Virus record (IMG/VR): IMGVR_UViG_3300032086_002243
Location: 1 to 32,666 of that record
DNA length: 32,666 nucleotides
Reading direction: 5' to 3' (one strand)
Origin: a virus
The first letter of the stretch is position 1; every line of letters starts with the position of its first letter. The notes below the pieces were generated by a model. The model was not told where the DNA came from, did not search any database, and saw only the letters and a program-made list of their open reading frames with translations. The translations under genes were made by a program, and so were the position numbers. This document shows, in pieces, positions 4,687-30,993 of the stretch.

Positions 4687-4752
4687 CAATGGCTTGCAGT
4701 ATCACGGTTTTACGGGAGAATGCCACTTGGAAACCTTTATACTGTCGTGGGT
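4687..4752 (+). promoter_or_regulatory. Promoter with upstream element GCAGTATCAC and TATA box
   Basis: Upstream element GGCTTGCAGTATCACGGTTT (from 4691) with CCTTTATACTGTCG starting at 4734. The element-to-TATA spacing is 38 nt; at 9147-9212 the same element sits 39 nt before CCTTTATATCC. It would start transcription near 4762-4766 and drive the 5144 gene through a long leader. Confidence 0.65.
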
Positions 4753-4764
4753 TATCAGCAAAAC

Positions 4765-5143
4765 GCTATCGGAACAAACAACTTACCCCACTCCGATAAG
4801 CCGACTGGGGAATTTCGCTACCTCCGACCTGTATGACGGGTCGGGCAGGGAGACTGGGTAGCATCAACCAAGACCTGCCACTGAAGGCAGTCACGATTCA
4901 CGGTCAAGGTATGCTGAGAACTTTCAGTTCAATGACGCACACCAAGACTCCAATGATGAACGAACGGATACCATGACAACGAATAGGCACTTGTGCCGAA
5001 TTCTCTCAACTCAAAAACCGTTTTTAGTGACTGGAATAGGGCAACTGGCAGGTCGTTTTCGATATACACGGTAGGCATTGTTTGAGCCTACCCTATCACA
5101 GTCCACCCTTGAATTAGGGAGACAACAAATGGAGGAATGAAAA
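4765..5143 (+). other. Long structured 5' leader of the 5144 gene (about 380 nt)
   Basis: No convincing ORF. Hairpins visible: CCGACC/GGTCGG with a 9-nt loop (4824-4844), CTGCC/GGCAG (4875-4890), GGCA/TGCC (4986-4997) and GGTAGGC/GCCTACC with a 9-nt loop (5070-5092). The SD GGAGGAA follows at about 5131. It could be a regulatory leader or hold an unrecognised small RNA; no known riboswitch class was recognised. Confidence 0.45.
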
Positions 5144-7438
5144 ATGAATAACATAACCCAAACAAGCGAAGATGTCGCTTACTTCATGGGCTTATTATGG
5201 GTCTTAGGACTCATGTTAGCCTGTGTGGTAGCGTATATCGGGAACAAACGAACAAACAACCTATACGGCAACCCAAAGCAACGACGAGTTGGCTTTGAGA
5301 TTGAGACAGTTGACCCCACCTATGATGTGAATAGGTCACGCCTCGCTCAATGGCTTACTCGTAAGTTCGGTCTACGAACTGAGGACATGAACTACACTCA
5401 TGAAGTTGTAGAACATACCAAACTTGTGACCGACGGCTCGCTAAGTGGTGGAACTGGAGTCGAAATCGTCTCTCCACCACTACATCAGCATGAGATTAGG
5501 TCTTACCTATCCAAGTTGACAAGCGGGATTCGTGGTATCATGGGTGTCAACCGTAGCACTGGACTTCATGTTCATGTTGAGATAATTGGCGATGAACAAG
5601 ACGGCAGTAACATTGGCGACGAATCACGAGTCGTAGGGGCTGTCGCAGTGGCTTACGGCTACTTTCAAGATGCTATCAACAAGATGGTCTCAAGGAGTCG
5701 TCGTAACAATGGGTCATACTGTGGTGAGATGGGATACGCTTACAATTATTTCAAAGCGTATCGCAGTGGTGGTTTAGCCTTTGAGCGAATGCCACTACGA
5801 GATGCTCTCAAGAATGTGTTTAACATCATGCACGATTATGACTATCATCGCATGAGTGAACATCGCTACCAAGCCGTAAACCCCACATCACTGCGAAAGT
5901 ATGGAACTGTTGAGTTCCGTCAACACCAAGGAACGACGAACCCGACCAAGATTGATGCTTGGTCACAATTCGTTATTCTGTTGACAGAACGATGCACTGA
6001 TTTCACATCACTTGAGACTCTTACAAACTTCAAGCGTGATGACATCGGGCAAATGTTCCGTTGGATAGGACTCAGCCCACAAGCGAGCCTTGTCCGATAC
6101 TACAAGAAGCGAAGTCAAGTGCTTGAAACTGGAGTCGTGACTGGTGTAAACGGTCAATGCAAAACCTGTAACTCAAACCGATGTGCTGGTGACTGCGTGA
6201 CTCAAGAATCATACTCAGTTGATGACCTACGAGAGTGGGCTACCAATGAATATGGTATGATGGGATTCGTAGGACTGTTGTTTAGCCTGTCGCCTTTGGT
6301 GGTAGCCATCGCACTCATCGTAGGGTGCGGAATTGGTGCGATTCACAATGCGGGTGCGAAGAAGTTCAAACACAAGAACCGAGCAGTCGCACTGTGGAAC
6401 AAACTCGCCATTCGTGGTGGTCAAGCATCGGGTGTGGCATGGCGTGACGGTCAAGGTAAACTGTGGTTCATCAAAAGCCCAGTTTCAAGCCGTCAACTAT
6501 CACACAACCTACGAAAGCAATTGGACGAGGACGCATCAGTCGTTATCATGCACACAAGGTATGCGACACATGGTGTAAACAACAAAGCCAATGCACACCC
6601 ACACTGGAGTTCATGCAACCGAATATGTCTTGTTCACAATGGCGTGGTTCACAACCACGACGATGTGTGGAAGGCTCTCGGACGAAAGCCAACTGGTGAT
6701 GTGGATTCAATGGCAGTTGCCGAGGCACTTGCCGTTGGTGGCATCGAAGAGGTTGTCAAGCACTGTGAAGGCTCAATGTCTCTCATATGGCTTGACCGTG
6801 ACCACAAGCATGACCTCAAGTTTTGGACGAATGGCGGTAATCCACTGGCATTCGGACGGCTTGACCACAAGACAAAGGGTGCGGTAGTCGTGGCTTCCAC
6901 GATGGACATACTCAAGTCCACCATGGGTAAGCGGCTCAAATCAGCCTACGAGTGTGTTGTAGGTCGTGAATACACTGTCACAAAGGACGGCTCAATCACA
7001 AGCCGTGACATCGAAGGCAGTGAGGCAACGGCTCGCACTTTCTATGACTGGCGAACTTGGAGTCGTGGTTCATACTACGATGATTGGCAACCGACCAAGC
7101 CACTCAAGGCAACTGGTAACGCTGACAACTGCTCACTACCTGCCAAGACAACCTCGGTTGAATACCCAGAGGACGATATGCCTAACGAAGATGTGATTCA
7201 CTTTTGGACTGAGATTCTTAGAGCAACTGTGAACGGCATTTACGATTGGCAACCTTGGAAGTCAATTGTTGATGAGAAGGTCACATACCACGGTTATGAC
7301 GGCTTCACCAATGAAGGCATTAGACCCGACGGCACGATGTATGAGTGTCCTCATGTGGTTCAATACGAACACGCATCAAGCCCAGTGCTTGAGAGGTTGC
7401 TCTACGGTCACTATGACCCATTGACTGCCGAAGTTTGA
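5144..7438 (+). CDS. Membrane-anchored amidoligase fused to class II glutamine amidotransferase, 764 aa
   Basis: Predicted to form an amide bond between a carboxylate and an amine, with ammonia from glutamine available from the second domain. Order of parts: transmembrane segment at about 12-33; glutamine-synthetase-fold amidoligase at about 45-320 (GFEIET 50-55, DGSL 97-100, EIVSPP 107-112, GLHVHV 140-145, VEFRQHQGT 256-264); a cysteine cluster CKTCNSNRCAGDC (339-351); a second hydrophobic segment (about 372-394); then an Ntn-type amidotransferase starting CGIGAI (Cys395) with HTRYATHG (470-477), HNG (498-500) and GDVDS (518-522), as in GlmS/PurF; then about 120 unassigned residues. The nucleophile Cys395 would have to be freed by cleavage to act as an N-terminal cysteine. 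The basic stretch after TM1 suggests the ligase is cytoplasmic. SD GGAGGAA precedes the ATG. Domain calls are by motif; the fusion and topology are inference. Confidence 0.85.
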   Translation: MNNITQTSEDVAYFMGLLWVLGLMLACVVAYIGNKRTNNLYGNPKQRRVGFEIETVDPTYDVNRSRLAQWLTRKFGLRTEDMNYTHEVVEHTKLVTDGSLSGGTGVEIVSPPLHQHEIRSYLSKLTSGIRGIMGVNRSTGLHVHVEIIGDEQDGSNIGDESRVVGAVAVAYGYFQDAINKMVSRSRRNNGSYCGEMGYAYNYFKAYRSGGLAFERMPLRDALKNVFNIMHDYDYHRMSEHRYQAVNPTSLRKYGTVEFRQHQGTTNPTKIDAWSQFVILLTERCTDFTSLETLTNFKRDDIGQMFRWIGLSPQASLVRYYKKRSQVLETGVVTGVNGQCKTCNSNRCAGDCVTQESYSVDDLREWATNEYGMMGFVGLLFSLSPLVVAIALIVGCGIGAIHNAGAKKFKHKNRAVALWNKLAIRGGQASGVAWRDGQGKLWFIKSPVSSRQLSHNLRKQLDEDASVVIMHTRYATHGVNNKANAHPHWSSCNRICLVHNGVVHNHDDVWKALGRKPTGDVDSMAVAEALAVGGIEEVVKHCEGSMSLIWLDRDHKHDLKFWTNGGNPLAFGRLDHKTKGAVVVASTMDILKSTMGKRLKSAYECVVGREYTVTKDGSITSRDIEGSEATARTFYDWRTWSRGSYYDDWQPTKPLKATGNADNCSLPAKTTSVEYPEDDMPNEDVIHFWTEILRATVNGIYDWQPWKSIVDEKVTYHGYDGFTNEGIRPDGTMYECPHVVQYEHASSPVLERLLYGHYDPLTAEV

Positions 7439-7473
7439 GTTAGTTCGTTTGATTCCCAAACAAACAACCAGTT

Positions 7474-7585
7474 AGTGACTTAGATGTCACTTTGTTCGAC
7501 CGTTTTGTGCCTCGGCACAATCCACTAAATGAGGGGCTTGGTCGCCCCCACCCTTCAAACAGTCAAGCACACATCTTGAGTGTGC
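7474..7585 (+). other. Hairpin-rich spacer between 5144 gene and the zinc mini-gene
   Basis: Four consecutive perfect hairpins: AGTGAC/GTCACT (7474-7491), TTGTGC/GCACAA (7505-7520), GGGGC/GCCCC (7533-7548) and GCACAC/GTGTGC (7567-7585). The last is 5 nt before the SD of the next gene. No U-run follows, so these look like RNA-processing or translation-control structures rather than terminators. Confidence 0.5.
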
Positions 7586-7604
7586 GAGACTGGGAGGAAT
7601 ACAA

Positions 7605-7766
7605 ATGACAAAAATACAGTGGAAGCACTGTGAGAAGTGTGGTAAGAACACACGCCATGAATATGACCATGGAAGCCAAGCGTTTGAATGCACAACCGAG
7701 GCTTGTGAGGTCGGTTTAGTGGCAGTGTGGAAAACCAAGCAACTTGCAGGCAAAACACAATATTGA
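7605..7766 (+). CDS. Zinc-ribbon-like protein, 53 aa
   Basis: SD GGGAGGAA then ATG 7605. CEKC (residues 9-12) and CTTEAC (29-34) give a two-knuckle zinc ribbon, followed by a strand-like GLVAVW. It closely parallels the 65-aa product at 9242 in size and layout, so both may be viral regulators. It lies downstream of the amidoligase fusion and is probably co-transcribed with it. Function unknown. Confidence 0.65.
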   Translation: MTKIQWKHCEKCGKNTRHEYDHGSQAFECTTEACEVGLVAVWKTKQLAGKTQY

Positions 7767-7811
7767 GTGGCGGGTCGAACCGTCACAACTTAGCAAAGCA
7801 AACGAACAAAC

Positions 7812-7849
7812 GGGAGAGGCAGGCAAGGAGGTGAAACGCCTGCCCTCCC
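7812..7849 (+). ncRNA. Hairpin presenting a perfect SD sequence in its loop
   Basis: GGGAG(A)GGCAGGC at 7812-7824 pairs with GCCTGCCCTCCC at 7838-7849: 12 bp with one bulged A. The 13-nt loop AAGGAGGTGAAAC carries AGGAGGTGA, fully complementary to the 3' end of archaeal 16S rRNA. No sensible ORF follows; the only open frame runs into the terminator at 7869. It could be a small RNA or the 3' end of the operon mRNA. Confidence 0.45.
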
Positions 7850-7868
7850 ACCCGTTTTCCACGAGCGA

Positions 7869-7902
7869 GCCATCTGCCGATGTAGGCAGGTGGCTTTTTT
7901 TT
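7869..7902 (+). terminator. Strong hairpin plus T8 terminator
   Basis: GCCATCTGCC, GATGTA, GGCAGGTGGC (10 bp, one G-U) followed by eight T. It closes the plus-strand unit 5144-7766. Confidence 0.8.
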
Positions 7903-7954
7903 ATCGAAAAATTTTTTCACAAGTAGTCTAACAGTTATGTAAGACTAAAGACTT

Positions 7955-7996
7955 AGAAGAGAGAGAGAGAGAGAAGAGAGAGAGAAAGAGAGAGAC
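7955..7996. repeat. GA-rich tract 5
   Basis: The longest GA tract (about 42 nt). It is preceded by GTAAGACTAAAGACTTAGAA and lies between the plus-strand terminator and the end of the minus-strand cluster 8071-8575. The rest of 7997-8070 shows nothing. Confidence 0.85.
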
Positions 7997-8070
7997 AAAG
8001 ACTCCGCCCATGCAAACCAACCCACCCACCCCTCTCTCGTGAGAGAAAACTCAATCACTCAACAGTCCCA

Positions 8071-8184
8071 TCAATCAAGCGGCACTTCTTTGTGCTTACC
8101 ACATACCAAACAATCATACACTGAAACTGGTTGCTCACCCTCGAAATCCAAGTAGATGTGCCAATTGTGTGAGCAATTGTTCAT
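8071..8184 (-). CDS. Small zinc-binding-type protein, 37 aa
   Basis: ATG 8184 overlaps the upstream stop (ATGA) and follows the SD AGGAGGCGAC that lies inside the upstream coding end. Cys4, His6, His9 and CLVC (25-28) suggest a single zinc site. Function unknown; it is the last gene of a three-gene minus-strand cluster. Confidence 0.55.
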   Translation of the reverse strand: MNNCSHNWHIYLDFEGEQPVSVYDCLVCGKHKEVPLD

Positions 8185-8405
8185 TCTTGTCGCCTCCTAC
8201 CGAATACAAAATCCACCTTTCCTGTCATGCCCTCTATGGCAATTGAAACAACAATGAATTCGTAGTGAGGGTAATCTTCCCGAAATATCTCAACGGTAGA
8301 AGTTTTAGTGCCTTTCTCATTTCTTCCGAACGAGTAGTAAGTTTTACCGTCCACCTCGACTTCCAACCCCCTGTTGTTTCTAAACACCATGTCTGTTTTG
8401 CTCAT
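8181..8405 (-). CDS. Hypothetical protein, 74 aa
   Basis: Unrecognised, no cysteines, likely beta-rich (VEVDGKTYYSFGRNEKG). ATG 8405 overlaps the stop of the 57-aa gene by 4 nt and uses the SD AGGAGGCGA. Its C-terminal RRRQE is encoded by the SD cassette of the next gene, exactly as in its upstream neighbour. Confidence 0.6.
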   Translation of the reverse strand: MSKTDMVFRNNRGLEVEVDGKTYYSFGRNEKGTKTSTVEIFREDYPHYEFIVVSIAIEGMTGKVDFVFGRRRQE

Positions 8406-8575
8406 TCTTGTCGCCTCCTGTTAATCCAACCTACCTCTACCATGTCGTCAATCTGCACTGAGCATTGATAACAGTAGCCAAGATGTAGGGTTTTTTTCTT
8501 CGTTTCGTCCTTATTCGTAATGGTGATTACTTGCTCGTAGTTGCCGCAATCACCACATATACATTTGTTAGCCAT
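8402..8575 (-). CDS. Zinc-ribbon-like protein, 57 aa
   Basis: Start chosen at ATG 8575, preceded by SD GGAGGCGAC; the longer frame upstream crosses the TATA box and is rejected. CICGDC (residues 5-10) and CYQC (35-38) form a plausible zinc ribbon. It is the first gene of the cluster, with the TATA box 41 nt upstream of the start. The protein ends in RRRQE, encoded by the downstream SD. Confidence 0.65.
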   Translation of the reverse strand: MANKCICGDCGNYEQVITITNKDETKKKTLHLGYCYQCSVQIDDMVEVGWINRRRQE

Positions 8576-8607
8576 ATAGTCGCCTCCAATCAATCCTAAC
8601 AGGTGGT

Positions 8608-8616
8608 AGTATATAA
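8608..8616 (-). promoter_or_regulatory. TATA box for the 8575 cluster
   Basis: TTATATACT on the minus strand; the start codon is 41 nt from its first T. This matches the leadered promoter class (40-44 nt). Confidence 0.6.
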
Positions 8617-8682
8617 GCAGTTGGGTGTCCCATTTTGGCGATGCCAATACCTATCATATATTAAGACATTAAGACTTAACAC

Positions 8683-8718
8683 GAGAGAGAGAGAGAGAAC
8701 GGGAAGAGAGAGAGAGAA
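8683..8718. repeat. GA-rich tract 6 with TTAAGACTTAA neighbours
   Basis: Two GA runs (8683-8699 and 8704-8718). They are flanked by TATATTAAGACATTAAGACT on the left and TTATTAAGACTTAAGACTTG on the right, the clearest copies of the AAGACTTA motif that accompanies these tracts. Confidence 0.8.
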
Positions 8719-8763
8719 ACTTTATTAAGACTTAAGACTTGGAGGGGCGAGGCGGGGCAGGTA

Positions 8764-8778
8764 AGAGAGAGAGAGAGA
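8764..8778. repeat. GA-rich tract 7
   Basis: Short pure GA run just before the first copy of the 27-bp repeat at 8785. A further remnant lies at 8821-8829. Confidence 0.75.
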
Positions 8779-8784
8779 TAAGAC

Positions 8785-8880
8785 TATAAACTGTCAGCCC
8801 ACCTGCGTTGGAGTTCGGGCGAGAGAGAGGGCAAATTTGCAGTCCACAATGTTTATAGACCGACATATTACCTGCGTTGG
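8785..8880. repeat. 27-bp imperfect direct repeat, copies 69 bp apart
   Basis: Copies at 8785-8811 and 8854-8880 match at 20 of 27 positions. Both begin with TATARAC and end in the identical ACCTGCGTTGG. They could be protein-binding iterons of an origin, or TATA-containing promoters on the plus strand. Confidence 0.55.
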
Positions 8881-8897
8881 CGAGCGAGGGGTGTATA

Positions 8898-8985
8898 AAC
8901 TACGGCAAAATCACGGCAAAACGGCACAAAAACGGCACGAAACGACGAAAAGCGGGGCAAAATGCCGATAAAATGTCGAAAAAGT
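8898..8985. other. Eight helically phased A-tracts (CGGCAAAA-type units)
   Basis: A-runs centred near 8908, 8919, 8930, 8941, 8949, 8960, 8971 and 8981, mostly 10-11 nt apart and separated by CGGC/CGAC/GCCG blocks. This should be strongly bent DNA. It lies about 250 nt upstream of the 9195 TATA box and right of the 27-bp repeats; between it and 9147 nothing else is seen. Confidence 0.65.
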
Positions 8986-9146
8986 GTGCGTGTGGGTAGG
9001 TTTCCCGTCGGTTTTCGGCAACATACTACCATATTCCGACCATCAATCTTGAAGTATCGCCCTCCGCCCAGTCCGTTCACCTGCCGTCGCCCTGCACGAC
9101 GCACTCATAGGGGGACGAGAACTGCAAATCTGTGGTTGCCCCGTCG

Positions 9147-9212
9147 AAATGCCTCGCAGTATCACAGTTTATGTATCAAACTCCGCCTACCAACCCTTTA
9201 TATCCTATGACT
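9147..9212 (+). promoter_or_regulatory. Promoter with the same upstream element as 4687, for the 9242 operon
   Basis: CTCGCAGTATCACAGTTT (from 9153), then CCTTTATATCC from 9195. TTATATC at 9198 is 44 nt from the ATG at 9242, leaving a short leader with SD GGAGGAA. Confidence 0.7.
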
Positions 9213-9241
9213 TACTCGTTGATTTTGTCGGAGGAATAACA

Positions 9242-9439
9242 ATGACGAATTTGAAAATGGAAACATATTGTAACAGATGCGAGAAAACAACAGAAGTAGA
9301 GCCACACTACCCTCATGGTGCGAAGTTTTGCGTATGCGGGACTGGGCTTGCCATCATCGTTGATGGCTACAAACTCGGTAGCGGCAACAGAACACCACAA
9401 CACATAGAGGACTTCATGCGAAGCCTAAAAACATGGTAA
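9242..9439 (+). CDS. Zinc-ribbon-like protein, 65 aa
   Basis: SD GGAGGAA before ATG 9242. CNRC (residues 10-13) and CVC (30-32) make a probable zinc ribbon, followed by GLAIIVDGYKL. It is the first gene of the plus-strand operon that runs to 12742. It resembles the 53-aa product at 7605 in layout. Function unknown; first position in the operon would suit a regulator. Confidence 0.65.
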   Translation: MTNLKMETYCNRCEKTTEVEPHYPHGAKFCVCGTGLAIIVDGYKLGSGNRTPQHIEDFMRSLKTW

Positions 9440-9451
9440 GGAGGAATCACA

Positions 9452-10240
9452 ATGAGTGGGTATCACATGCAACAAACAGGAATATGGATTAAGGACAAAC
9501 AGACGGATAAAACGGTAGCCGAATGGGTAGGTGCTTTGCACTACCTCGATGAAGCAAAGGGTCGCATTGACATGATGCGAACGAGGGCAGAATGGTGGGA
9601 GGACATAGAGGGGCTTGACGAGTGGCTCAGCGACATGACCTACGACTTCGACCCCGACCACAAGGGAGTCGGCTTCAAGTGGCTCTTTAGTGATGATAAC
9701 CGCCTAATCATTGTGGTGTGCGACACTAACATTGACCGAGAGGTAGAGTCACCCGTAGAAAACAAATCGGTGCTTGTGGAGGACAGTAGAAGCCTAAGCA
9801 AAGCCATACTGCACATTTGCAGAACGGGTAAGAAGGGACAATACTACACCCTGTATCACGAGGGAATCATCGAAAACGGGCATCTACGCAACTACTTCTG
9901 TGATTACAACGGCAACCTCTCGCTTGACTTGGAGAAGGCATACGACAAGGCACTCGAACGGTTTGAGGACATGGTGAACTCCAAGTTCTACCGTGTGGTC
10001 GAACTGCAATACTGGGAAACGCCCCGCCAAATCTACAACAAGATGGAGGCGTTCGGCACTGAGTTCAAGACCGCCAAATCGGGTAAGGTCATGTGGGCTA
10101 ACGCCACCCAAGAGTTTTGGACGCTATGGCGTGAGAAGAAAGCCGAAATCAAAGAGGCGGGCTTTTGGGTCAAGAGAACCGACAGTGGCGACTGGCTCGT
10201 GTTTGTCAAGTGCGACCCCGAATTCGCCAACCATCGTTGA
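9452..10240 (+). CDS. Hypothetical protein, 262 aa
   Basis: Unrecognised. SD GGAGGAA and ATG 9452, 12 nt after the zinc-ribbon gene. It is rich in Trp/Tyr and acidic residues (WWEDIEGLDEWLSDMTYDFD at about 48-67). It looks soluble, with no membrane span or nucleotide-binding motif. Similarly Trp/Asp-rich proteins follow in the operon. Confidence 0.7.
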   Translation: MSGYHMQQTGIWIKDKQTDKTVAEWVGALHYLDEAKGRIDMMRTRAEWWEDIEGLDEWLSDMTYDFDPDHKGVGFKWLFSDDNRLIIVVCDTNIDREVESPVENKSVLVEDSRSLSKAILHICRTGKKGQYYTLYHEGIIENGHLRNYFCDYNGNLSLDLEKAYDKALERFEDMVNSKFYRVVELQYWETPRQIYNKMEAFGTEFKTAKSGKVMWANATQEFWTLWREKKAEIKEAGFWVKRTDSGDWLVFVKCDPEFANHR

Positions 10241-10648: not shown

Positions 10649-11202
10649 ATTGGTGCGAAATTGGAAACAAGAAAAAGGGCTACGAAGAAAACCCAAGGCA
10701 TATGTCGTTTTACGACTGGGGCTACGACGAATGCCCGATATGTGCCAAGAGGATTCTGCCATCGGGAGAAGAACACAAAGAGCAAATCACGAAACTGGAA
10801 CAGGAATTTCTACGAGAAATCACATACAGCGACCACTCGACAGACGGGAACGGATTCTGTATGTGGCTCAGTAGCGACGACTACCCTAAAGAGTGGCTCA
10901 CCCGAATGCGAGGCGTGATGACCTCTCTACAAAAGAAGGGCATCATCGGAGTAGACAACTCGATGCTCTATCAAGAGCCGAGGGCGACATGGATTTGGAT
11001 TAACGGAGACTATCAAGAAAGGGTGTCCGAAGAGGAATACGACGCTCTCGCTGAGCCGTTTAGACTACCGCCCGAAGAACTCAAATGTGGGGGAACTATC
11101 GTCGGACGCACGGACTGGGTGGCTCTACGACAGGCTGAGTACGACACTCAAACCGTCGTTTCGACAGGACACCGCTTGAAGAACTTGGAGGTGGCAGAAT
11201 GA
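10645..11202 (+). CDS. Hypothetical protein with CPIC knuckle, 185 aa
   Basis: Unrecognised. Coupled start (ATGA overlap) with SD GGAGGCGA. CPIC at residues 30-33 suggests one half of a zinc site. Residues 45-110 could hold a winged-helix-like fold (LEQEFLREI to LQKKGIIGVD), which is a weak guess. It overlaps the 11199 gene by 4 nt. Confidence 0.65.
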   Translation: MNWCEIGNKKKGYEENPRHMSFYDWGYDECPICAKRILPSGEEHKEQITKLEQEFLREITYSDHSTDGNGFCMWLSSDDYPKEWLTRMRGVMTSLQKKGIIGVDNSMLYQEPRATWIWINGDYQERVSEEEYDALAEPFRLPPEELKCGGTIVGRTDWVALRQAEYDTQTVVSTGHRLKNLEVAE

Positions 11203-20684: not shown

Positions 20685-21343
20685 TTATTTTTACAGATGA
20701 CGATACAAAATATCGAAAGGGCGATTACATTTCTATGTATGGCGAAATGACAATCTCTCCCACCGCACCCAATACTACATTTATCTACCACCCAAGGCAG
20801 ACTTTTACTGAGAAGGACGCTATTTACTGGGCTGATGTAGTCCCGTTCCGAATGGTAGTCGTGACAAACAAACTACCTAAGTTGACTGATAAGAGCAAAC
20901 ATTGTGTCATTGTAGACCAACAACTCAAGGTCAAGCAAGACTTGTATCGAATGACTCGTGCGGTTCTTTGTTGGGCTGATAGGGACAGGGCATTCAAGAT
21001 GATGGGTCAACTACCTATCCCTTATGTCAACGCCTTTCTCAAAGCCAATGTGAACGACATCGAGTTCGGTAGAATTCTCGCTCGATGCAAGTTTACTCTT
21101 GCAGATGATTACACGAGAGCAGTTATTTCCTACGGTGTCAAGCCAGTCAAGGAGTTCAAGAACCCACAGAAGAAGTCGAGCAACGATTATATACTGCCGA
21201 GCGATGTTAGACAAACAGACAAGCACATGGAAATCATCATCAATAATGATGTTGTGGTTTCAAACGCCATAAGGCGTGACGAACCCGAAGTGCTTCCGTC
21301 TAAACTCCCTAAGAGGAAACAGAAGGTGATAGAATGGATATGA
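20675..21343 (+). CDS. Hypothetical protein, possible degenerate clamp-loader partner, 222 aa
   Basis: Overlaps the previous gene by 10 nt. The first 100 residues read like an alpha/beta nucleotide-binding fold without a Walker A (FRMVVVTNKLPKLTDKSKHC, VIVDQQ), followed by a helical part and a basic tail (KLPKRKQK). Position three genes before the RFC small subunit, which has no large-subunit partner in the window, makes a second clamp-loader subunit conceivable. No motif proves this. A TTATATACTGCCGA box lies inside it at 21187. Confidence 0.5.
   Translation: MGVIIFTDDDTKYRKGDYISMYGEMTISPTAPNTTFIYHPRQTFTEKDAIYWADVVPFRMVVVTNKLPKLTDKSKHCVIVDQQLKVKQDLYRMTRAVLCWADRDRAFKMMGQLPIPYVNAFLKANVNDIEFGRILARCKFTLADDYTRAVISYGVKPVKEFKNPQKKSSNDYILPSDVRQTDKHMEIIINNDVVVSNAIRRDEPEVLPSKLPKRKQKVIEWI
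21187..21200 (+). promoter_or_regulatory. Possible internal promoter TTATATACTGCCGA
   Basis: Full match to the replication-module promoter family, but inside the 20675-21343 coding sequence (DYILPSD). It could drive the cyclotransferase gene at 21334 with a leader of about 115 nt, or be coincidence. Confidence 0.35.
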
Positions 21344-21702
21344 AATACTTGTTTGTATATGGAACGCTAAAGAATGGAAAGTCTAATCACAATGCGTTCT
21401 TAAGTGACGCTAAGTTGGTTGGAGAAGCAAAGACTGATAAGCAGTGGGGCTTGGTGGATTTGGGTCATTACCCTGCCATGATTATGAGCCATAAGTCTGT
21501 CGAAGGTGAATTGTATGAGATAGATGAGCAGATTCTTGCTCGTATTGACAGGCTTGAGGGTGTTGATGTGTTCGGAATGTATAGCCGACAACTCATACCA
21601 GTGTTTGTAGATGGCGTAGAATATCCCGCATGGACTTACATTATGTTCCGCAGGGATTTCCACCGACCAATAACAGAAAACGAAATCACATCGAGTTGGT
21701 AA
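21334..21702 (+). CDS. Gamma-glutamylcyclotransferase/AIG2-like protein, 122 aa
   Basis: FVYGTLKNG (7-15), DLGHYPAM (42-49), VEGELYEID (56-64) and IDRLEGVDVFGMYSR (71-85) are the signature of the GGCT/AIG2 fold; Glu75 in RLEG is the expected catalytic acid. Such enzymes release 5-oxoproline from gamma-glutamyl amines. Length is typical of the single-domain family. Phage members are predicted partners of amidoligases and glutamine amidotransferases, and the window has that pair fused at 5144. It overlaps the preceding gene; ATG 21340 is an alternative start. Biochemical role here is inference. Confidence 0.85.
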   Translation: MDMKYLFVYGTLKNGKSNHNAFLSDAKLVGEAKTDKQWGLVDLGHYPAMIMSHKSVEGELYEIDEQILARIDRLEGVDVFGMYSRQLIPVFVDGVEYPAWTYIMFRRDFHRPITENEITSSW

Positions 21703-22322: not shown

Positions 22323-23222
22323 ATGGACGAAGTATGGGCGGTTAAACACAGACCTACAACTCTTGATGAATTCAAGGGTCAAGATAGAATCAAGAACGAG
22401 TTCGCTCGCATTCTTGATGGCGAAGCACCGATGCAACATTATATCTTTCATTCTATGGAAGCAGGCACAGGCAAAACTTCTCTCGCTCATATCATAGCAA
22501 ACACACTGGGTTATGCTATCCACAAATACAATGCTTCAAGCAAGCGTCAGCGTGGTATCGAATTCGTTGAGGAAATAGCACTGATGACACGGCTTGGTCA
22601 ATATGAAACTATTTTCTTTTTGGACGAAGCAGACCAGTTGACCGAAGCGGCACAGTCCTCTCTCAAAGGTGTCATCGAAGATGCACAGGGTTTCTTTATC
22701 TTGACTTGTAATGATTTGTCAAAGGTTTCTCCTTGGCTTCAATCTCGATGCCAAGTGCGAACATTCGCACCGATTGACGAAAAACAAATGATGCAAAGGC
22801 TTGAAACAATTGAAAGTAAGGAGGGAGTTGAATCTAACCCCGACCACTTCGGTATCATAGCAAGTTCTAACCAAGGTGACTTGAGGAATGCTATCAATAC
22901 ACTACAAGCATATCACTCACTACCTGTCGAAGATAGAACAGATTTTATTCTCTCGCTTCAAGAACCGCCACTGAATAGTCACAGGGTTCTCAAGTTGCTT
23001 TTCAAGGAGAAGCAGGTCGAAGAAGCAGTTAAAATGATTGAAGGCGAATACAATCTACGCAAGACGATAGATGCGATATTCCGCTATGGTATAGATTCCT
23101 CCGCAGAACCACATAACAAAATGAGACTTGTTGATGCGTCAACACAGGCTCACCGTGATTTGATTATGGGTGTCGAACCGCATTATGTGGTTTGGGATTT
23201 TTGTAGAAGGTTGGCGGAGTGA
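22323..23222 (+). CDS. rfcS: Clamp loader, RFC small subunit-like, 299 aa
   Basis: Loads the sliding clamp at primer ends. The VWAVKHRPTTLDEFKGQDRI start is the RFC box; Walker A is SMEAGTGKTS (44-53, the usual GPPGTGKT replaced at the front), Walker B FFLDEAD (98-104), sensor 1 TCND (128-131) and SRC arginine motif (141-143), followed by GDLRNAINTLQ (sensor 2). Length is about right for RFC-S. No RFC-L is present, so the virus may use a homomeric loader, a divergent partner (20675 gene) or a host subunit. Leaderless start. Confidence 0.9.
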   Translation: MDEVWAVKHRPTTLDEFKGQDRIKNEFARILDGEAPMQHYIFHSMEAGTGKTSLAHIIANTLGYAIHKYNASSKRQRGIEFVEEIALMTRLGQYETIFFLDEADQLTEAAQSSLKGVIEDAQGFFILTCNDLSKVSPWLQSRCQVRTFAPIDEKQMMQRLETIESKEGVESNPDHFGIIASSNQGDLRNAINTLQAYHSLPVEDRTDFILSLQEPPLNSHRVLKLLFKEKQVEEAVKMIEGEYNLRKTIDAIFRYGIDSSAEPHNKMRLVDASTQAHRDLIMGVEPHYVVWDFCRRLAE

Positions 23223-23227
23223 AACAG

Positions 23228-23244
23228 TTTATATACTGGCGATA
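23228..23244 (+). promoter_or_regulatory. TATA box plus CTGGCGAT element
   Basis: TTTATATACTGGCGATA. ATG 23271 is 42 nt from TTATATA, with GAGGTAA as SD in the short leader. Confidence 0.7.
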
Positions 23245-23270
23245 TAGAAGGTAAAAATGAGGTAATAACT

Positions 23271-24464
23271 ATGGTTGATATAGATACTATGATTGGTAAA
23301 ATTAGTAAGAATATTGGTTGCACAGAAGATGCACTCCGTTCACGAATGGAGTCCTTCCTTGCAGAACAAAGGAACACATGGCTTGACAGTGGACTGTCGG
23401 AAGAGGATTGTAACATCAAGGCTCTACGAATGGTTGGTCGTCAAATCAAATCGGAAAACGACAGACTATCCCGAAGCGGTGCTACTGTCTACGAAGGTAT
23501 GTTCCTTAGCGTTCCAAGATACAAGGACTGGGCTGAACTTGCTTACAAGAAAATGGCTACACAAATTGCGAATGCACCCGAAGAAGTGATTGATGGATTG
23601 GTTGAACAAGGCATTGTTACTCTTTACGAAGATAACAATGACGGCACATTCACCAAGAAATACAACGGCTATCTTGCTCGTGGTGAGGACTTTGACACCG
23701 ATGTTTCTTCAACAGAAATTGCGGCACTACCAAAGAACACTTACGAAGCAACAGACGGAATTCATTTCCACTTGGTTTGGGACAAAGTAAGCCCGACATT
23801 CCCATCGGGAGACAAGAACTTCAAATACGGCAACGCTCGACCTTTGAGCGAGAAAGACCGTTCCTGTATGTTCTTGGGTCGTGCTAATGGCGGTGAAGTC
23901 GGACTTCACACATTCCGTTTCAGTGGCACTCTTGCAGAAGAACAATTCCCTGCATTCGTAGCAGGTAGAATTGCTATGCGAAGTGGACGAGGTGATGTCG
24001 CATGGGGTAAAGCAGGTGTCTCTACTTTCTACCGTGACGACTCTATCCAACAAATTTTCAGCGATGCACCCGACACTATCATTCAAGGAGTTGATGGTAT
24101 CGAGTTCCTCAGCGAAGGTCTACAACAGATTCGTTCCTATGTAGAAACTCTTGATGACAAAACACGATGGGACGCACTTGCTTCTGCCCTTACAGAAGTA
24201 GTCCACATTGACCCAAGAGACAACGGAGGTTACATTGTGACCGTAGGCGACCTTGATATTATGTCTACTGCGGGAACTGTTGACATCTATGTGCCTGCTT
24301 CTCATGAGCAGTATGTGGACTTCTCGGTTGGTAGCACACTGCTTGTTGTAGGACAACCTTACATCAGCCGTGACGATGAAGCACGACTCTCAATCACTGG
24401 TTGGTGGTGTGCAGAATCTATGGCACTATCAAGCCCACAAACCGATGACGGAGGTTGGGACTGA
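23271..24464 (+). CDS. RPA-like single-stranded DNA-binding protein candidate, 397 aa
   Basis: C-terminal region (about 350-390: VGSTLLVVGQPYISRDDEAR, LSITGWW) has the look of an OB-fold, and a second beta-rich region lies at about 205-260. The order of genes (RFC, this gene, RecA-like ATPase, PCNA, polymerase) and the acidic C-terminal tail (DDGGWD) fit a single-strand binding protein. There is no zinc finger. Evidence is fold impression plus context, so moderate confidence; an OB-fold protein of another role is possible. The first gene of the 23271-27119 operon. Confidence 0.5.
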   Translation: MVDIDTMIGKISKNIGCTEDALRSRMESFLAEQRNTWLDSGLSEEDCNIKALRMVGRQIKSENDRLSRSGATVYEGMFLSVPRYKDWAELAYKKMATQIANAPEEVIDGLVEQGIVTLYEDNNDGTFTKKYNGYLARGEDFDTDVSSTEIAALPKNTYEATDGIHFHLVWDKVSPTFPSGDKNFKYGNARPLSEKDRSCMFLGRANGGEVGLHTFRFSGTLAEEQFPAFVAGRIAMRSGRGDVAWGKAGVSTFYRDDSIQQIFSDAPDTIIQGVDGIEFLSEGLQQIRSYVETLDDKTRWDALASALTEVVHIDPRDNGGYIVTVGDLDIMSTAGTVDIYVPASHEQYVDFSVGSTLLVVGQPYISRDDEARLSITGWWCAESMALSSPQTDDGGWD

Positions 24465-25387
24465 TGGCGTGGGCTAACTCCAAGCAAGCGGTAGAGCAGT
24501 CAACCGTAGTCAAATACGGTGCTGACTACTACCGTGAGCAGTTCAACAAAAAAAGGCAGAACCATGCCCCAATCCGAATGGCGTTGGTCGGCAAGGAAAA
24601 CACCACTAAGACTGGGACTGCCTGTGACCTCGCTTTGAAGCACACTGATAAGCGAATCATTATCATTGACTGTGACAACTCGGCTCAAAACACGGTGGAT
24701 TACTTGCTATCCTCCAAGGTAAAAAATGCTGACAAAATCGAAGTCATTCCCATGATTGACGAACTCGATGAGGCGATGTGGGACGAAGAAAACAACTGCA
24801 ACTGGAATGCAGTAGTTGACAAACTTGAATGGTTCATCTCGATTATCGGTGAGCAAAGTGACGACATCGGGGCAGTCATCTTTGATGGTGGCTCTACATT
24901 CCTCAAGTGGTGCGAGTTCATTATGACCGAGCGACTCATCAACCGAGGCGTGATTCAAGAAGAAGGTGACAACTTCAATCAAAAAGAGTGGCGTGAGCGA
25001 AACAAGATTTTCAAGAGCGTTCTCAACCGATTGACTGCTCTACCTATCCCCTATGTGTTCTTTACTTTCCACTTGAAAGACAAGAAGCAATACATGGATA
25101 TTGGTAACGGCACTAAGGCTATGATGAAAGTAGGCGAGGTAGTTGACTGGGTGGATAGCACTCAGCGATTCGTAAGTCAACAGATTTTCTTGACCCGATA
25201 CACCAAGAAAGGTGACAAGGCGGCAGGCGTTGAAGCCGACAAGAACTTGGCAGAAGGCGAGTTCGTTATCCGTGGCGTAGTCGAAGAAATGAAAGGTAAG
25301 AACATGGAACATCTCGGCAAATCCTACGACATTCTTAGAGTCAAGGGCGAGAAGGTTGAATGGAACGGTATTCCGTTGGAGTGGTGA
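24464..25387 (+). CDS. RecA/RadA-like ATPase (Sak4/AAA_24-type), 307 aa
   Basis: ALVGKENTTKTGTA (40-53) occupies the Walker A position; the usual Gly before Lys is Thr, giving GxxxxTKT. Walker B is AVIFDGG (137-143). The later YVFFTFHLKDKKQYMD resembles motif 3 of phage Sak4 single-strand annealing/recombination ATPases, which often neighbour SSB and polymerase genes. Likely role: recombination or repair during replication. Start at ATG 24464, sharing one base with the previous stop; GGAGG lies upstream. Confidence 0.7.
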   Translation: MAWANSKQAVEQSTVVKYGADYYREQFNKKRQNHAPIRMALVGKENTTKTGTACDLALKHTDKRIIIIDCDNSAQNTVDYLLSSKVKNADKIEVIPMIDELDEAMWDEENNCNWNAVVDKLEWFISIIGEQSDDIGAVIFDGGSTFLKWCEFIMTERLINRGVIQEEGDNFNQKEWRERNKIFKSVLNRLTALPIPYVFFTFHLKDKKQYMDIGNGTKAMMKVGEVVDWVDSTQRFVSQQIFLTRYTKKGDKAAGVEADKNLAEGEFVIRGVVEEMKGKNMEHLGKSYDILRVKGEKVEWNGIPLEW

Positions 25388-25389
25388 GC

Positions 25390-25620
25390 ATGGACACACT
25401 ACAATTAGCAGAAGCGGTTGTTAAGCAATCGGAGTTAATCATCTCCACTTTCGAGGCGATTACTAAAAGGCTTGAAGAATTGGAGTCAAGAATTGCCGAC
25501 ACTGAAAACGCTCTCGATGATGTTGACGATAATGGGAAGTTGTATAAGGCAGTTGTCGAACTACAAGACGAAGTAGCAAAAATGAATCCCGATGCGATGC
25601 TGATACACAGAATGTGGTGA
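25390..25620 (+). CDS. Small coiled-coil protein, 76 aa
   Basis: ATG 25390 follows GGAGTGGTGAGC. Residues about 10-60 form a heptad-like helix (FEAITKRLEELESRIADTEN). No other feature. It lies between the RecA-like ATPase and the clamp and could be an oligomerising accessory factor. Confidence 0.55.
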   Translation: MDTLQLAEAVVKQSELIISTFEAITKRLEELESRIADTENALDDVDDNGKLYKAVVELQDEVAKMNPDAMLIHRMW

Positions 25621-25625
25621 GTCTC

Positions 25626-26432
25626 ATGAAGGTGAATAATAAGATACTGAGTCATCTGTTATCTGCCACTTCAAGAGAACAATTCATCAACGGTAAAAAT
25701 CAACAACAGGTTAGTAGTTGTGTATTGAATCTAAAAGATTCAGTCCTCCAAACTATCTGCATAGTCAAGGACGGCAAGACCAGTCTCTCAAGATTCTCAT
25801 GCAAAGTGGACGAGCAGAAAGACGATACTATCCCTGTTCCCGATATTGATAGACTAAATGGTGTTCTCAAGTATCATGGAGAGACAGTGACACTGACTTT
25901 CAACAAAGAAAAAGACTCAGTGCTTGTCAAGTCCTCTAACAAACAGACTACTCTTGTTGGTGGTTTCAACTCCAAGGCTTACGAGAACAGTAGAGATACT
26001 CTCGCCCAAAGAGAAGAACAGGCTATCGAAAGGTCTAAACAAATCAAAGGCGACACTTACATTGTTAAAGACGGTGAGCAAATCAATCCGTTCTTTACTG
26101 CTGAGATAGAATCTTCGGTGCTTTGGGACGCTCTTAGGTGCGATGGAATCAACGGGCAGAAGTTAAACCGATACAGATTTGACTTCGACGGTAGCGAGTT
26201 ATCTGTTTCTGTTGGCGACCATTTCAAAGGTATGACCACCAGTATTCTGTGCGACGAGTATTCGGGTGATGACTTTACTGCTGAGTTTGAAGGTGGATTA
26301 GAAAACATCATCAAGCATTACAGTGGTAAGGTTAAACTGTCATTCCTTGACTTCTCGGAATACAATCAAGGGACTCGACTGATACTGAGTTTTACTAACG
26401 GTGACTGGGTATTTCAAGCGGGGGTATTGTGA
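25626..26432 (+). CDS. PCNA-like sliding clamp, 268 aa
   Basis: Processivity clamp for the polymerase. Recognised from overall pattern: paired beta-alpha-beta repeats, VTLTFNKEKDSVLVKSSNKQ in the first half, and a C-terminal FEGGLENIIKHY, KVKLSFLDF, TRLILSFTNGDWVF series like PCNA domain 2. Length fits PCNA (about 250). Divergent, with no obvious interdomain-loop motif. The ATG at 25626 has GGTGA as SD; an ATG 12 nt earlier is possible. Flanked by RecA-like ATPase and polymerase genes. Confidence 0.65.
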   Translation: MKVNNKILSHLLSATSREQFINGKNQQQVSSCVLNLKDSVLQTICIVKDGKTSLSRFSCKVDEQKDDTIPVPDIDRLNGVLKYHGETVTLTFNKEKDSVLVKSSNKQTTLVGGFNSKAYENSRDTLAQREEQAIERSKQIKGDTYIVKDGEQINPFFTAEIESSVLWDALRCDGINGQKLNRYRFDFDGSELSVSVGDHFKGMTTSILCDEYSGDDFTAEFEGGLENIIKHYSGKVKLSFLDFSEYNQGTRLILSFTNGDWVFQAGVL

Positions 26433-26818
26433 CGAATCGAGATAATGACTTTCATGTTTTCAAAAACATACCTTCGTTTACTGTCGAAGAAGTAGAAGCA
26501 GTGATTCGTGGTCATGTCCTTGAAGATTGGCTCTACTCCAACAGGAGAAAGGGTCAACTATACTGGAAAATAACCATGTTATGCGTTTTGCATTACGACT
26601 TTGAAGAAGGTGAGAAGTTTACCAATCACGACATAAAAGATTGTGTAGTGAGAAGAAACGGTAGAGTTCTTAGAGTATCTAACGAAAGGATTGCGGCATT
26701 TATGAAGTTCATTTGTGCCAAAGACCCAAACTACGAGAAACTCGGTAGATATGTTTTGGGAGAAAGCGGAGTCGCACAAACAGTGTATTTGAAGAAAGGT
26801 GAAGAAGATGAGATATGA
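26429..26818 (+). CDS. Hypothetical protein, 129 aa (GTG start)
   Basis: GTG 26429 overlaps the clamp stop (GTGA), with GGGGG upstream. Probably a small alpha-rich or winged-helix fold (FTNHDIKDCVVRRNGRVLRV, then NERIAAFMKFI). Function unknown. Confidence 0.6.
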   Translation: MTNRDNDFHVFKNIPSFTVEEVEAVIRGHVLEDWLYSNRRKGQLYWKITMLCVLHYDFEEGEKFTNHDIKDCVVRRNGRVLRVSNERIAAFMKFICAKDPNYEKLGRYVLGESGVAQTVYLKKGEEDEI

Positions 26819-27119
26819 ATGTATGGATTGTGGTCATGTAGGATTTATTGTTCTTGGTAGTAATTCTATTATCAAGGCAGAACCTACTAAGATAAACACG
26901 ACTTGTCCCCAGTGCAGTTGGGTCAATCAAATAGTAATGCAAATCAAGTGTAGAAATGAGTCATATCGTGACAAGAAGTGGCTTCAACAAAAGTATGAGA
27001 AAGACGGACTTTCCATGCAGACTATTGGGGACTATTGCGGTGTGAGTGCTATGACTATCCACATTTGGTTAAACAAGCATGGTATTGAGACTCGAAAGCG
27101 TGGTTACAACAAGAACTAA
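26808..27119 (+). CDS. Zinc-ribbon plus HTH protein, 103 aa
   Basis: Start at ATG 26808 overlapping the previous stop. CMDC (5-8) and CPQC (33-36) form the zinc ribbon; LQQKYEKDGLSMQTIGDYCG, then VSAMTIHIWLNKHGIETR, is a classic helix-turn-helix as in resolvase/homeodomain-like regulators. Probable DNA-binding regulator. The polymerase promoter sits across its stop codon. Confidence 0.7.
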   Translation: MRYECMDCGHVGFIVLGSNSIIKAEPTKINTTCPQCSWVNQIVMQIKCRNESYRDKKWLQQKYEKDGLSMQTIGDYCGVSAMTIHIWLNKHGIETRKRGYNKN

Positions 27120-27132
27120 ATACTGACGATAA
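27115..27132 (+). promoter_or_regulatory. TATA-type box ACTAAATACTGACGATAA
   Basis: CTAAATA starts 30 nt before ATG 27146; leaderless polymerase mRNA expected. Confidence 0.7.
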
Positions 27133-27145
27133 TAGATTGTTTGAT

Positions 27146-29407
27146 ATGATTGTTTCACACAAGAATGGCAGAACAATATCGGTAAGGTATCGTGACCCCG
27201 AAACGCTTGAGCGTAAAGAGGAACTGATTACTCGACACCCCTACTGTTTTGTTGACAAGAAACCTTCCGATACCTACGGTATCATCGTAGATGATGAGAA
27301 ATACGAAGGTGTTTACGGAGAGGAATTGACGAAGGTTTCATTCCGAACCGATTATGATAGGTCGGAATGGGTCAAGCATTACAGGGGTTCGACATGGGAG
27401 GCTTCAATGCCTTTCGCTAATCAAATACTCAATGATAGAATCCTTGAAGGAGAAGAACCATTCCCCAACTACGAGCATAGGGTTTGGTATCTTGACGGTG
27501 AATGGAAACAGGAATCGGGTGAGATAACTATACTTACTGCTTTGGATTCATATACAGGCAAAACATACACATGGCTCACCCACCCCGAAGTCAAAGCGGG
27601 AATGGTGAATTCTATACCATGTAAAAATCACCCCGATGGGTTACAAGAAGTTGTCTTTGACCCTCCCGCTAAAGCATTTGCTAACGAGAGGCAACTACTT
27701 GCTGATTTTGCGGCTCACATGAAGAAACAAGACCCCGACATCATAGCAGGTTGGTATGTTGTTGACGCAGATATTTACCAAATCTGCACGAGAATGCGTA
27801 GGAATGGACTGAAACCCGAATCACTATCCCCTCTCAACAAACACATCTACAAATACAACTGGTCGGACAAGCGTTGGAATCAACCCATCGTAGCCCGTAT
27901 CTGTTTTGATTTGATGGTGGCGTTCAAGAAACTGTGGACGATAAAGAACGGGCAACTCGCAGGGCAGAAACTCGATGACATAGCAGATTTTGTTTTGGGA
28001 GAACGCAAAGTTCCTCTTGAGGACGGTCATGACACCTACTACACTGACATAGGAACTTATGTGGACTACAATCGCCAAGATGTGAGGCTTCTGCCTAAAC
28101 TTGACGAAGTAGTAAATGCCACTGGGTATTTTACATCACTGCAACATCTAATTCAATGCGAAATAGAGACTACTCCTTTGACTACACTACCTGCTTCTTG
28201 CTTGTTCATTCAAGACCAAGAATTTGACCTACGAATACCCGACAAACCAAAGTTTGCTAAGGTTGATTATACGGGTGCTGATGTGCAAGATGTCGAGGCA
28301 GGCATCTATCACAACATGGCTATCATGGATATTAAAGCGATGTATCACTCAAATGTGAAACTACACAATATTTCGTGGGACACGATAGATGAGAACGGTA
28401 TTGATTGCGGCAACGGAACTAAATTCACAAAGGATAGAAGCGGGTTGCTCGGCAGGGCTATGGATAAATTGACTGTCAAGCGTAACGAATACAAAGCGTT
28501 GATGAAGCAGGCTCTTGCAGATGGCGACATGAAGGCTTACAAGAAGTATGACGGTAGCCAGTTTGCTACTAAGTCAATGGTCGCCTCCCTCTACGGTGTG
28601 GCAGGCGATTCTAAGTATGGTATGTATCACCCCGACATCGCTTCTGCTATCACATTCACATCGAGACAAACACTATATCGTCTGCGTGATGAGTGCAACA
28701 GTCGAGGCTACCCAGTGAGATACGGGCATACCGATTCTATCTTTTGTGAAGTCCCTACTGCCGAAGAGGGTCTTGAGTTGGTAGCCGAAATCAACAAGGC
28801 TATGCACCCTATCGAAACTGAGTTTGAAAAGTGGTGCGAATCAATGATTCTCAAGGCTAAGAATCGCTACGCAGGTAAAGTCACATGGACTGATGGCAGA
28901 TACCATGACCCCGACTACTACTACAAAGGCTTGGAACTCAAACAGGCACGAATGCCGAAGGCTATGAAGCAAAGTATGGATAGCATACTTCGTGCAATCC
29001 TCGACGGTAAACACCAAAATGAGATTGATGATTTGGTTTGTTCTCTAATTAGACAAGGTGTTGACGGGGATATGGGCGAAGATTTGCTAATGATTGGCAA
29101 ACTCAAGCGTCCACTTTCTTCATACAAGACACTAAGCGGTGCTACCGCAGGCGTGGTGTGGGCTAAGAAACATCTCAACCGTTCTTATGAGGTTGATGAA
29201 GCATTCCTAACTGCCGTGAACAAGCAAGGGCAGTTCATGGCTTTCGATTCGCTCGATTCAATCAAGGGCGTAAGCGAAGTTGATTGGTCGGAGATGACTG
29301 AAAGATACATTGTCAAGAAGGCTTGTGATATTTACGAACTGGTCAATTGGGACACACAAGTTTTATGGAACGCCCACCGAGGCATAAGGAATGTGGAATG
29401 GATTTAA
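27146..29407 (+). CDS. polB: Family B DNA polymerase with 3'-5' exonuclease, 753 aa
   Basis: Replicative polymerase. Exonuclease motifs: YLDGEW (Exo I, Asp117/Glu119), an Exo II region GWYVVDADIYQ (about 202-212) and YVDYNRQD (Exo III, near 305-312). Polymerase motifs: A MDIKAMYHSN (394-403), B KSMVASLYG (476-484), C YGHTDS (526-531). The usual motif C YGDTDS has His in place of the first Asp, while the second Asp is kept. Start at ATG 27146 follows the leaderless rule; TTG 27137 is an alternative. Length is normal for archaeal/viral PolB. Confidence 0.93.
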   Translation: MIVSHKNGRTISVRYRDPETLERKEELITRHPYCFVDKKPSDTYGIIVDDEKYEGVYGEELTKVSFRTDYDRSEWVKHYRGSTWEASMPFANQILNDRILEGEEPFPNYEHRVWYLDGEWKQESGEITILTALDSYTGKTYTWLTHPEVKAGMVNSIPCKNHPDGLQEVVFDPPAKAFANERQLLADFAAHMKKQDPDIIAGWYVVDADIYQICTRMRRNGLKPESLSPLNKHIYKYNWSDKRWNQPIVARICFDLMVAFKKLWTIKNGQLAGQKLDDIADFVLGERKVPLEDGHDTYYTDIGTYVDYNRQDVRLLPKLDEVVNATGYFTSLQHLIQCEIETTPLTTLPASCLFIQDQEFDLRIPDKPKFAKVDYTGADVQDVEAGIYHNMAIMDIKAMYHSNVKLHNISWDTIDENGIDCGNGTKFTKDRSGLLGRAMDKLTVKRNEYKALMKQALADGDMKAYKKYDGSQFATKSMVASLYGVAGDSKYGMYHPDIASAITFTSRQTLYRLRDECNSRGYPVRYGHTDSIFCEVPTAEEGLELVAEINKAMHPIETEFEKWCESMILKAKNRYAGKVTWTDGRYHDPDYYYKGLELKQARMPKAMKQSMDSILRAILDGKHQNEIDDLVCSLIRQGVDGDMGEDLLMIGKLKRPLSSYKTLSGATAGVVWAKKHLNRSYEVDEAFLTAVNKQGQFMAFDSLDSIKGVSEVDWSEMTERYIVKKACDIYELVNWDTQVLWNAHRGIRNVEWI

Positions 29408-29419
29408 ATACTGGCGTGA
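29403..29419 (+). promoter_or_regulatory. TATA box TTTAAATACTGGCGTGA
   Basis: Starts within the polymerase stop region. TTAAATA is 29 nt from ATG 29433. Confidence 0.7.
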
Positions 29420-29432
29420 TAGGTGTTTAAGT

Positions 29433-29714
29433 ATGGCAAACAAAAGAAAGATGACAGGAATGGAATTGACACAGGCAGTAGCACAACTCGGTGCGTCTGT
29501 TCAAGCATTGGGGCAAGCAGTTGCTCAAGATATGGGGCAGATTATGGGCGTGTTGTCGGGCTTACTACAACACATGGGCTTGATTGAAGAGTTCAAGTGC
29601 GGTTCATGTGGCAGTGATTTGAGTTATCCTAAACTCGAAGGTATCACTGCCCCTACCAAGTGTCCCCATTGTCAAAGCGATTTGACAGAAGATATTCCAA
29701 GAGAAGAAGAATGA
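29433..29714 (+). CDS. Zinc-ribbon protein with helical N-terminus, 93 aa
   Basis: Leaderless ATG 29433. Residues 8-50 form a Gln/Ala/Met-rich amphipathic helix or coiled coil; CGSC (56-59) and CPHC (76-79) form a zinc ribbon; acidic tail. Could be an oligomeric replication or transcription accessory protein; no family recognised. Confidence 0.65.
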   Translation: MANKRKMTGMELTQAVAQLGASVQALGQAVAQDMGQIMGVLSGLLQHMGLIEEFKCGSCGSDLSYPKLEGITAPTKCPHCQSDLTEDIPREEE

Positions 29715-29728
29715 TTATTAAACAAACG
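29715..29728 (+). promoter_or_regulatory. TATA-type box TTATTAAACAAACG
   Basis: 30 nt from ATG 29745. Directly follows the previous stop. Confidence 0.55.
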
Positions 29729-29744
29729 GTGCGTGGTGTTGAAC

Positions 29745-30987: not shown

Positions 30988-30993
30988 TTAAAC

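Follow-up and report, generated by a model that had tools for sequence, protein, structure and literature searches.

A cysteine that corresponds to the nucleophile of class II glutamine amidotransferases (GATs) lies deep inside a viral protein, behind a whole amidoligase and directly behind a hydrophobic segment, and this buried cysteine is a real feature that is conserved across a clade of related viruses. The protein is encoded in the window, by which we mean the whole stretch of 32,666 nucleotides that was analysed (IMG/VR record IMGVR_UViG_3300032086_002243). With somewhat better than even confidence, based on sequence and analogy, we propose that the precursor is cut at the Gly394-Cys395 bond, most likely by the Ntn domain itself, which would yield an active GAT. 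The features of the gene are given below.

5144-7438, plus strand: fused amidoligase–class II GAT gene; 764 aa plus stop in a single open frame
5174-5239, plus strand: N-terminal hydrophobic segment, residues about 11-32, predicted membrane helix 1; Kyte-Doolittle 2.41 for the 19-mer 14-32
5276-5974, plus strand: amidoligase domain (glutamine-synthetase-like), residues 45-277; Pfam Amidoligase_2, 5.9e-24
6158-6196, plus strand: four-cysteine motif C339-x2-C342-x4-C347-x3-C351 between the ligase and the second hydrophobic segment; nearly invariant in the clade alignment
6260-6325, plus strand: second hydrophobic segment, residues about 373-394, ending I-V-G, with Pro384 inside; Kyte-Doolittle 2.65
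6323-6328, plus strand: Gly394-Cys395, proposed cleavage site, with Cys395 as the proposed Ntn nucleophile, from conservation and structural alignment
6326-7054, plus strand: core of the class II GAT (Ntn) domain, residues 395 to about 637; Pfam GATase_6/7/4 and catalytic motifs

The reading frame starts behind a strong ribosome-binding-site match (duplex energy -9.3), and its product carries, in this order, a hydrophobic N-terminus, the Amidoligase_2 domain, a hydrophobic segment and the GAT. The profile of Amidoligase_2 (PF12224) matched with 85.7 bits, above the curated cut-off of 22, and by family the domain is a predicted ATP-dependent ligase. The ligase part of the structural model resembled 1tt4 (Z 13.5), YbdK (1r8g, 13.1) and glutamine synthetases (12.4-12.5), middling values (12-13.5) that are to be taken together with the Pfam match. 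A helix was modelled at residues 8-40, and the other fused members have a similar N-terminal segment. The four-cysteine motif may be a metal site or zinc knuckle. The 19-mer 375-393 is the hydrophobicity maximum of the protein, the next separate peak being the one at 14-32, and codon 395, TGC (6326-6328), follows directly after ATC GTA GGG. In the GAT, GATase_6 matched residues 463-578, GATase_7 and GATase_4 likewise scored above their cut-offs, and the catalytic motifs read RGG, HTRYATHG, HNG and VDS. The initial annotation, which placed CGIGAI directly behind a hydrophobic stretch ending IVG and after a whole enzyme, thus described the layout correctly.

As judged from sequence profiles and from the predicted structure, Cys395 is homologous to the Ntn nucleophile, as had been presumed for residue 395. 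Position 2 of the phrog_14519 (glutamine amidotransferase) profile aligned to this residue. In an AlphaFold2 model built from a 53-row alignment (mean pLDDT 81, pTM 0.49), the GAT core at 400-620 was mostly above pLDDT 90 and a strand at 396-401 began right after Cys395, while the helix at 369-391 before it was of low confidence (pLDDT 49-55 over 361-390) and insecure in shape. When the model was compared with folds ranked high by Foldseek, VIA-align superimposed Cys395 on the first residue of E. coli PurF (1ecb; Z 27.1, rmsd 2.3, 225 residues aligned), of GlmS (2j6h, Z 26.1; 1xff, Z 25.6), of mature B. subtilis PurF (1gph, Z 22.2) and of asparagine synthetase (AsnB, 1ct9, Z 21.5). In Arabidopsis GPRAT2 (6lbp, Z 23.0), its counterpart was Cys87. 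The alpha-beta-beta-alpha arrangement of the Ntn fold with the Cys as residue 1 was found, with Z of 27.1-21.5 to PurF, GlmS and AsnB. The parts of the literature available to us agree with the premise of the initial annotation that this family needs an N-terminal Cys and can remove a propeptide: class II GATs are described as requiring a free N-terminal Cys, with preceding residues cleaved autocatalytically (PMC9140057), and removal of the GPRAT2 propeptide is described as exposing Cys87 (PMC7056826).

A scan of IMG/VR recovered 21 loci (L171-L191), all with the Cys, which together with the window make a clade of 22 members; they are 37-45% identical to the window across the ligase-amidotransferase. 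Two kinds of search word were used, WTNG[GE]NP, which is independent of the Cys and is carried by 18 of the 22, and one word that contains the Cys; L174, L181, L183 and L185 were found only by the latter and are not independent evidence for conservation of the Cys. L175 and L177 are near-copies in the tree, so that n = 22 is slightly inflated. When viral contigs were first scanned with this protein alone as query, no confirmed relative came up, and a scan of GTDB gave two loci with matches covering the ligase part only. Only L190 has the GAT as a separate gene; in the other 21 of the 22 members it is fused to the end of the ligase.

Counting the Cys as +1, Val-2, Cys+1, Gly+2, Ile+3, Gly+4 and His+7 were invariant in all 22 members. 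Position -1 was Gly in 20 and Asn in two (L189 and L190), position +5 was Ala in 20 and Leu in two, and the codon before the Cys was GGN or AAC throughout. The initial annotation had named an invariant and always internal Cys-Gly-Ile as the pattern to look for: the invariance was found without exception, no homologue lacking the Cys being recovered, and the internal position was found in 21 of the 22, L190 having a separate gene that keeps the hydrophobic segment as a leader. His+7 corresponds to His401 in the window (6344-6346); it occurred in none of the 16 split rows of the tree set, in which Gly+4 occurred in two (L103 and L105). His+7 was considered as a catalytic residue for cleavage and dropped because it lies six residues along the strand from the Cys. 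The RG, HTRxxTHG, HNG and DS motifs were kept in 22/22 clade members (the RG motif of L180 was missed by the pattern and read by eye as RGAQATG) and were also invariant when the split relatives were set alongside. With all four catalytic motifs kept, the GAT domain of the clade appears, from its sequence, to be selected as an active glutaminase.

Across all loci, 66 distinct GAT domains with an aligned N-terminus remained once we had set aside profile matches that began beyond position 3 and domains duplicated in their first 150 residues, and every one of them had Cys at position 1. The residue before it was Met in 41 and Ile or Val in three (L008, L006 and L067), the remaining 22 being the clade. 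In a maximum-likelihood tree built from 38 GAT domains, 22 from the clade and 16 from split loci, a single branch (99/93; present in 98% of 200 bootstrap trees) set the clade apart, beside the split pair L103/L105, the outgroup order being unsure owing to the long rows L094, L085, L068 and L184 and to long branches that meet. The fused L189 and the split L190 were sisters (100/99); either L190 may have lost the fusion or other lines may have gained it twice. Two amidoligase-like ORFs (4746-5981 and 8448-10178) were seen in L081, a single 10.5-kb locus of a 244-kb contig.

The top hydrophobic 19-mer near the Cys ended 0 or 1 residue before position -1 or the Cys in 21/21 fused members, and such a peak abutting the Cys, together with residues invariant in 22/22, is more than chance would give. 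From position -22 to +6, over all 22 rows, D, E, K, R, H, N or Q occupied only four cells (two at -10 and the two Asn at -1), and Pro was present at -11, -8 or -7 in every member except L184. The mean charge of the flanks of this second segment was -3.0 on the N-side and +3.9 on the C-side, the C-side being the more positive in 21/21. The first hydrophobic segment followed the same trend in 17/21, a count in which the script took a weak segment of L187 (0.88) where another analysis found one of 2.35. Membrane insertion of both segments is predicted from their hydrophobicity and flanking charge. By the positive-inside rule, the flank charges favour N-out/C-in for both helices, which cannot hold for a simple two-span protein and counts against our best explanation. 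A re-entrant hairpin around the conserved Pro, or early cutting, would resolve this conflict.

In named phages, the amidoligase and GAT domains are encoded by separate neighbouring genes. The GAT starts with Met-Cys in Ottawa, Kovu, Shrooms, Proteus 3H10_20, Cronobacter 009 and JB8, and as annotated with Val-Cys in ctOsX528 and Ile-Cys in Bas87; in the chosen split control loci, an ATG stood immediately before the Cys in 27/27. The separate GAT of L190 is built differently, with 16 hydrophobic residues followed by Cys17, and its ligase retains a hydrophobic N-terminus of its own. On its contig (coordinates of L203), the ligase, which ends in TGA at 11057-11059, overlaps the GAT, which starts with ATG at 11053 right behind an in-frame stop (11050-11052) and has its own ribosome-binding-site match (duplex with the 16S tail, -9.5). 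Since the L190 GAT retains the hydrophobic leader, the second hydrophobic segment is a feature of the GAT side, serving as its leader. As its sequence reads, this GAT cannot gain an N-terminal Cys through removal of the initiator Met alone. A sequencing frameshift behind the split is unlikely, because the error would be confined to 11053-11056 and yet would have created a start codon and a ribosome-binding site. An intein at the Asn-Cys junction of L189 and L190 was also rejected, L189 being one 721-aa frame with no extra domain seen between ligase and GAT.

We favour a precursor in which a membrane-anchored amidoligase would be joined through the hydrophobic segment to a class II GAT that stays inactive until cleavage of the Gly394-Cys395 bond releases the amino group of Cys395. 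The Ntn domain would most likely cut its own chain, as with the short propeptides of Bacillus-type PurF. Two chains would result: the ligase, flanked on both sides by hydrophobic segments, and the GAT, with Cys as its first residue. They would probably remain associated, with the GAT feeding glutamine-derived ammonia to the ligase at the inner face of the membrane. Asn at -1 fits self-cleavage better than it fits signal peptidases. We know of no close precedent for hydrophobic residues directly against an Ntn scissile bond, and this counts against the proposal. Cleavage could be simple maturation with both chains remaining together, and a role as a regulatory switch is speculation. A more specific version, in which the precursor inserts through the Pro-containing segment as a re-entrant element, folds against it and cuts itself at the membrane surface, is put forward tentatively and is rather improbable in that full form.

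Other explanations were weighed. A host membrane protease, either signal-peptidase-like or intramembrane, could cut before Cys395 and leave the same mature GAT; a hydrophobic segment does end at this site, position -1 is a small residue in 20/22, and the L190 segment is an N-terminal leader. We nevertheless consider this unlikely, since Asn stands at -1 in L189 and L190, the flanks are acidic on the N-side and basic on the C-side in 21/21, opposite to secretory signal peptides, and known class II GAT propeptides are, in the parts of the two accounts available to us, removed autocatalytically (PMC9140057, PMC7056826). Lipid attachment to Cys395, which would turn the GAT into a lipoprotein, had been suggested by the initial annotation from IVGC and proved weak enough that we give it very little credence. 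The I-V-G-C of the window does fit [LVI][ASTVI][GAS]C, with the same small residue at -1 in 20/22; against this, the other two members have Asn there, the segment is internal in 21/22 rather than N-terminal, and lipidation would block a nucleophile whose catalytic partners are all conserved. A lipoprotein signal requires a basic N-side, the reverse of the pattern seen here, in which the flank charges are inverted in 21/21 and the basic n-region of a signal peptide is missing.

An internal start in or before the hydrophobic segment would produce a separate GAT with a short hydrophobic leader beside the long fusion. The window offers ATG ATG at residues 372-373, the L190 GAT with its 16-aa leader exists as a gene in its own right, L183 has an internal TTG with a good ribosome-binding-site match (-10.1), and the best internal candidate does at least as well as the N-terminal start in L172, L176, L183 and L186, where the first start codon is perhaps misjudged. 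Over the 21 fused genes, however, the best candidate within the 30 codons before the Cys averaged -5.0, the same as the background of best-of-four random internal start codons (-5.2, s.d. 1.9), whereas the best N-terminal start codon had a mean duplex energy of -7.8 over all 22. Candidate positions were not common to the members, and the leader would still need to be removed, so that we hold this explanation to be improbable. About as doubtful is the idea that the chain is never cut and that the GAT is a relic with a binding or structural role, like the N-terminal domain of beta-lactam synthetase, which has lost the nucleophile. That enzyme is among the structural matches (Z 14.6), and the Cys is not N-terminal in the precursor; a relic would nonetheless be expected to lose the Cys and the catalytic motifs, all of which are invariant over 22 divergent proteins.

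Among characterized systems, Bacillus-type PurF (GPRATase) and Arabidopsis GPRAT2 share the Ntn GAT fold and, according to the part of the source at hand, autocatalytic removal of the leader before the Cys (PMC7056826). They differ in having the GAT as first domain and in losing a propeptide or transit region, whereas in the window protein a whole ligase and a hydrophobic segment precede it. GlmS enzymes are the closest solved sequence relatives of the window GAT (1xff, 1.1e-9), with a structural Z of 26.1 (2j6h), but in them the GAT is first and without a leader. GlmS was rejected as the function of the whole protein, which had no sugar-isomerase match and scored 72.1 bits against TIGR01135, with a cut-off of 418.05. 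The same two domains are neighbours in Arthrobacter phages Kovu, Ottawa and Shrooms, in Privateervirus and in E. coli phage Bas87, but there as two genes, with a GAT that starts Met-Cys (Ile-Cys in the Bas87 record) and no hydrophobic leader. Penicillin acylase, glycosylasparaginase and gamma-glutamyltranspeptidase expose an internal nucleophile by cutting a precursor into two chains; they are of different families, and the chain upstream of their nucleophile belongs to the same enzyme rather than being a separate ligase set off by a hydrophobic segment. The usual class II architecture was not what we found, the GAT being C-terminal to the ligase in 21/22. In the class II amidotransferases known to us the GAT comes first, because the nucleophile must be residue 1, an order that is usual and not strictly defining. 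In the titles and abstract openings of the open-licence literature searched, we found no description of a class II GAT that follows a ligase or a hydrophobic segment in its chain.

The window likely belongs to an archaeal tailed virus, as judged from sequence matches: the PolB matched best to haloarchaeal tailed viruses (about 23%), and the clamp loader was closest to the archaeal RFC small subunit (the archaeal structures 2chq and 1iqp). Positions 22323-32156 form a replication block with an RFC-like clamp loader, PolB and a PD-(D/E)XK nuclease. By eye, the ORFs at 25614 and 31110 resemble a sliding clamp and a primase; the clamp candidate (25614-26432) had no PDB match and the putative primase no phage match. 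The PolB (27137-29407) is 64-74% identical to that of clade relatives, compared with 37-45% for the ligase-amidotransferase (5144-7438), indicating that the latter gene evolves much faster. Behind it, positions 7440-9450 are about 2 kb without an ORF of at least 100 aa, with a short purine-rich GA repeat near 7960-8000. In the parts available to us, GlmS-type genes are reported in magroviruses (PMC10160649) and a class II GAT in haloarchaeal phiCh1 and ChaoS9 (PMC8651126).

A gamma-glutamyl cyclotransferase (GGACT, 93.9 bits) is encoded at 21334-21702 on the plus strand. The same gene was present in 8/21 clade records, most of the others being fragments, and in 8/9 of the records that hold PolB; in Arthrobacter phage Kovu it adjoins the ligase and GAT genes. 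Ligase, GAT and gamma-glutamyl cyclotransferase probably form one pathway that would make and trim gamma-glutamyl or similar amides. The gene-neighbourhood idea is reportedly that of Iyer and co-workers (2009).

The clade places the GAT last, behind an enzyme and a hydrophobic segment, an arrangement kept over divergent viruses (21/22), and the surprising part is this inverted domain order with a membrane-type segment before the nucleophile, retained across a virus clade. The natural split in L190 makes the cleavage idea directly testable. The class II amidotransferase family is, to our knowledge, known only as soluble. If the cut is real, this domain order would be made possible only by proteolysis, possibly with an activation step coupled to the membrane. 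If self-cleavage at the membrane surface were true, activation would go hand in hand with insertion into the membrane, and ammonia production would be confined to the sites of ligase anchoring.
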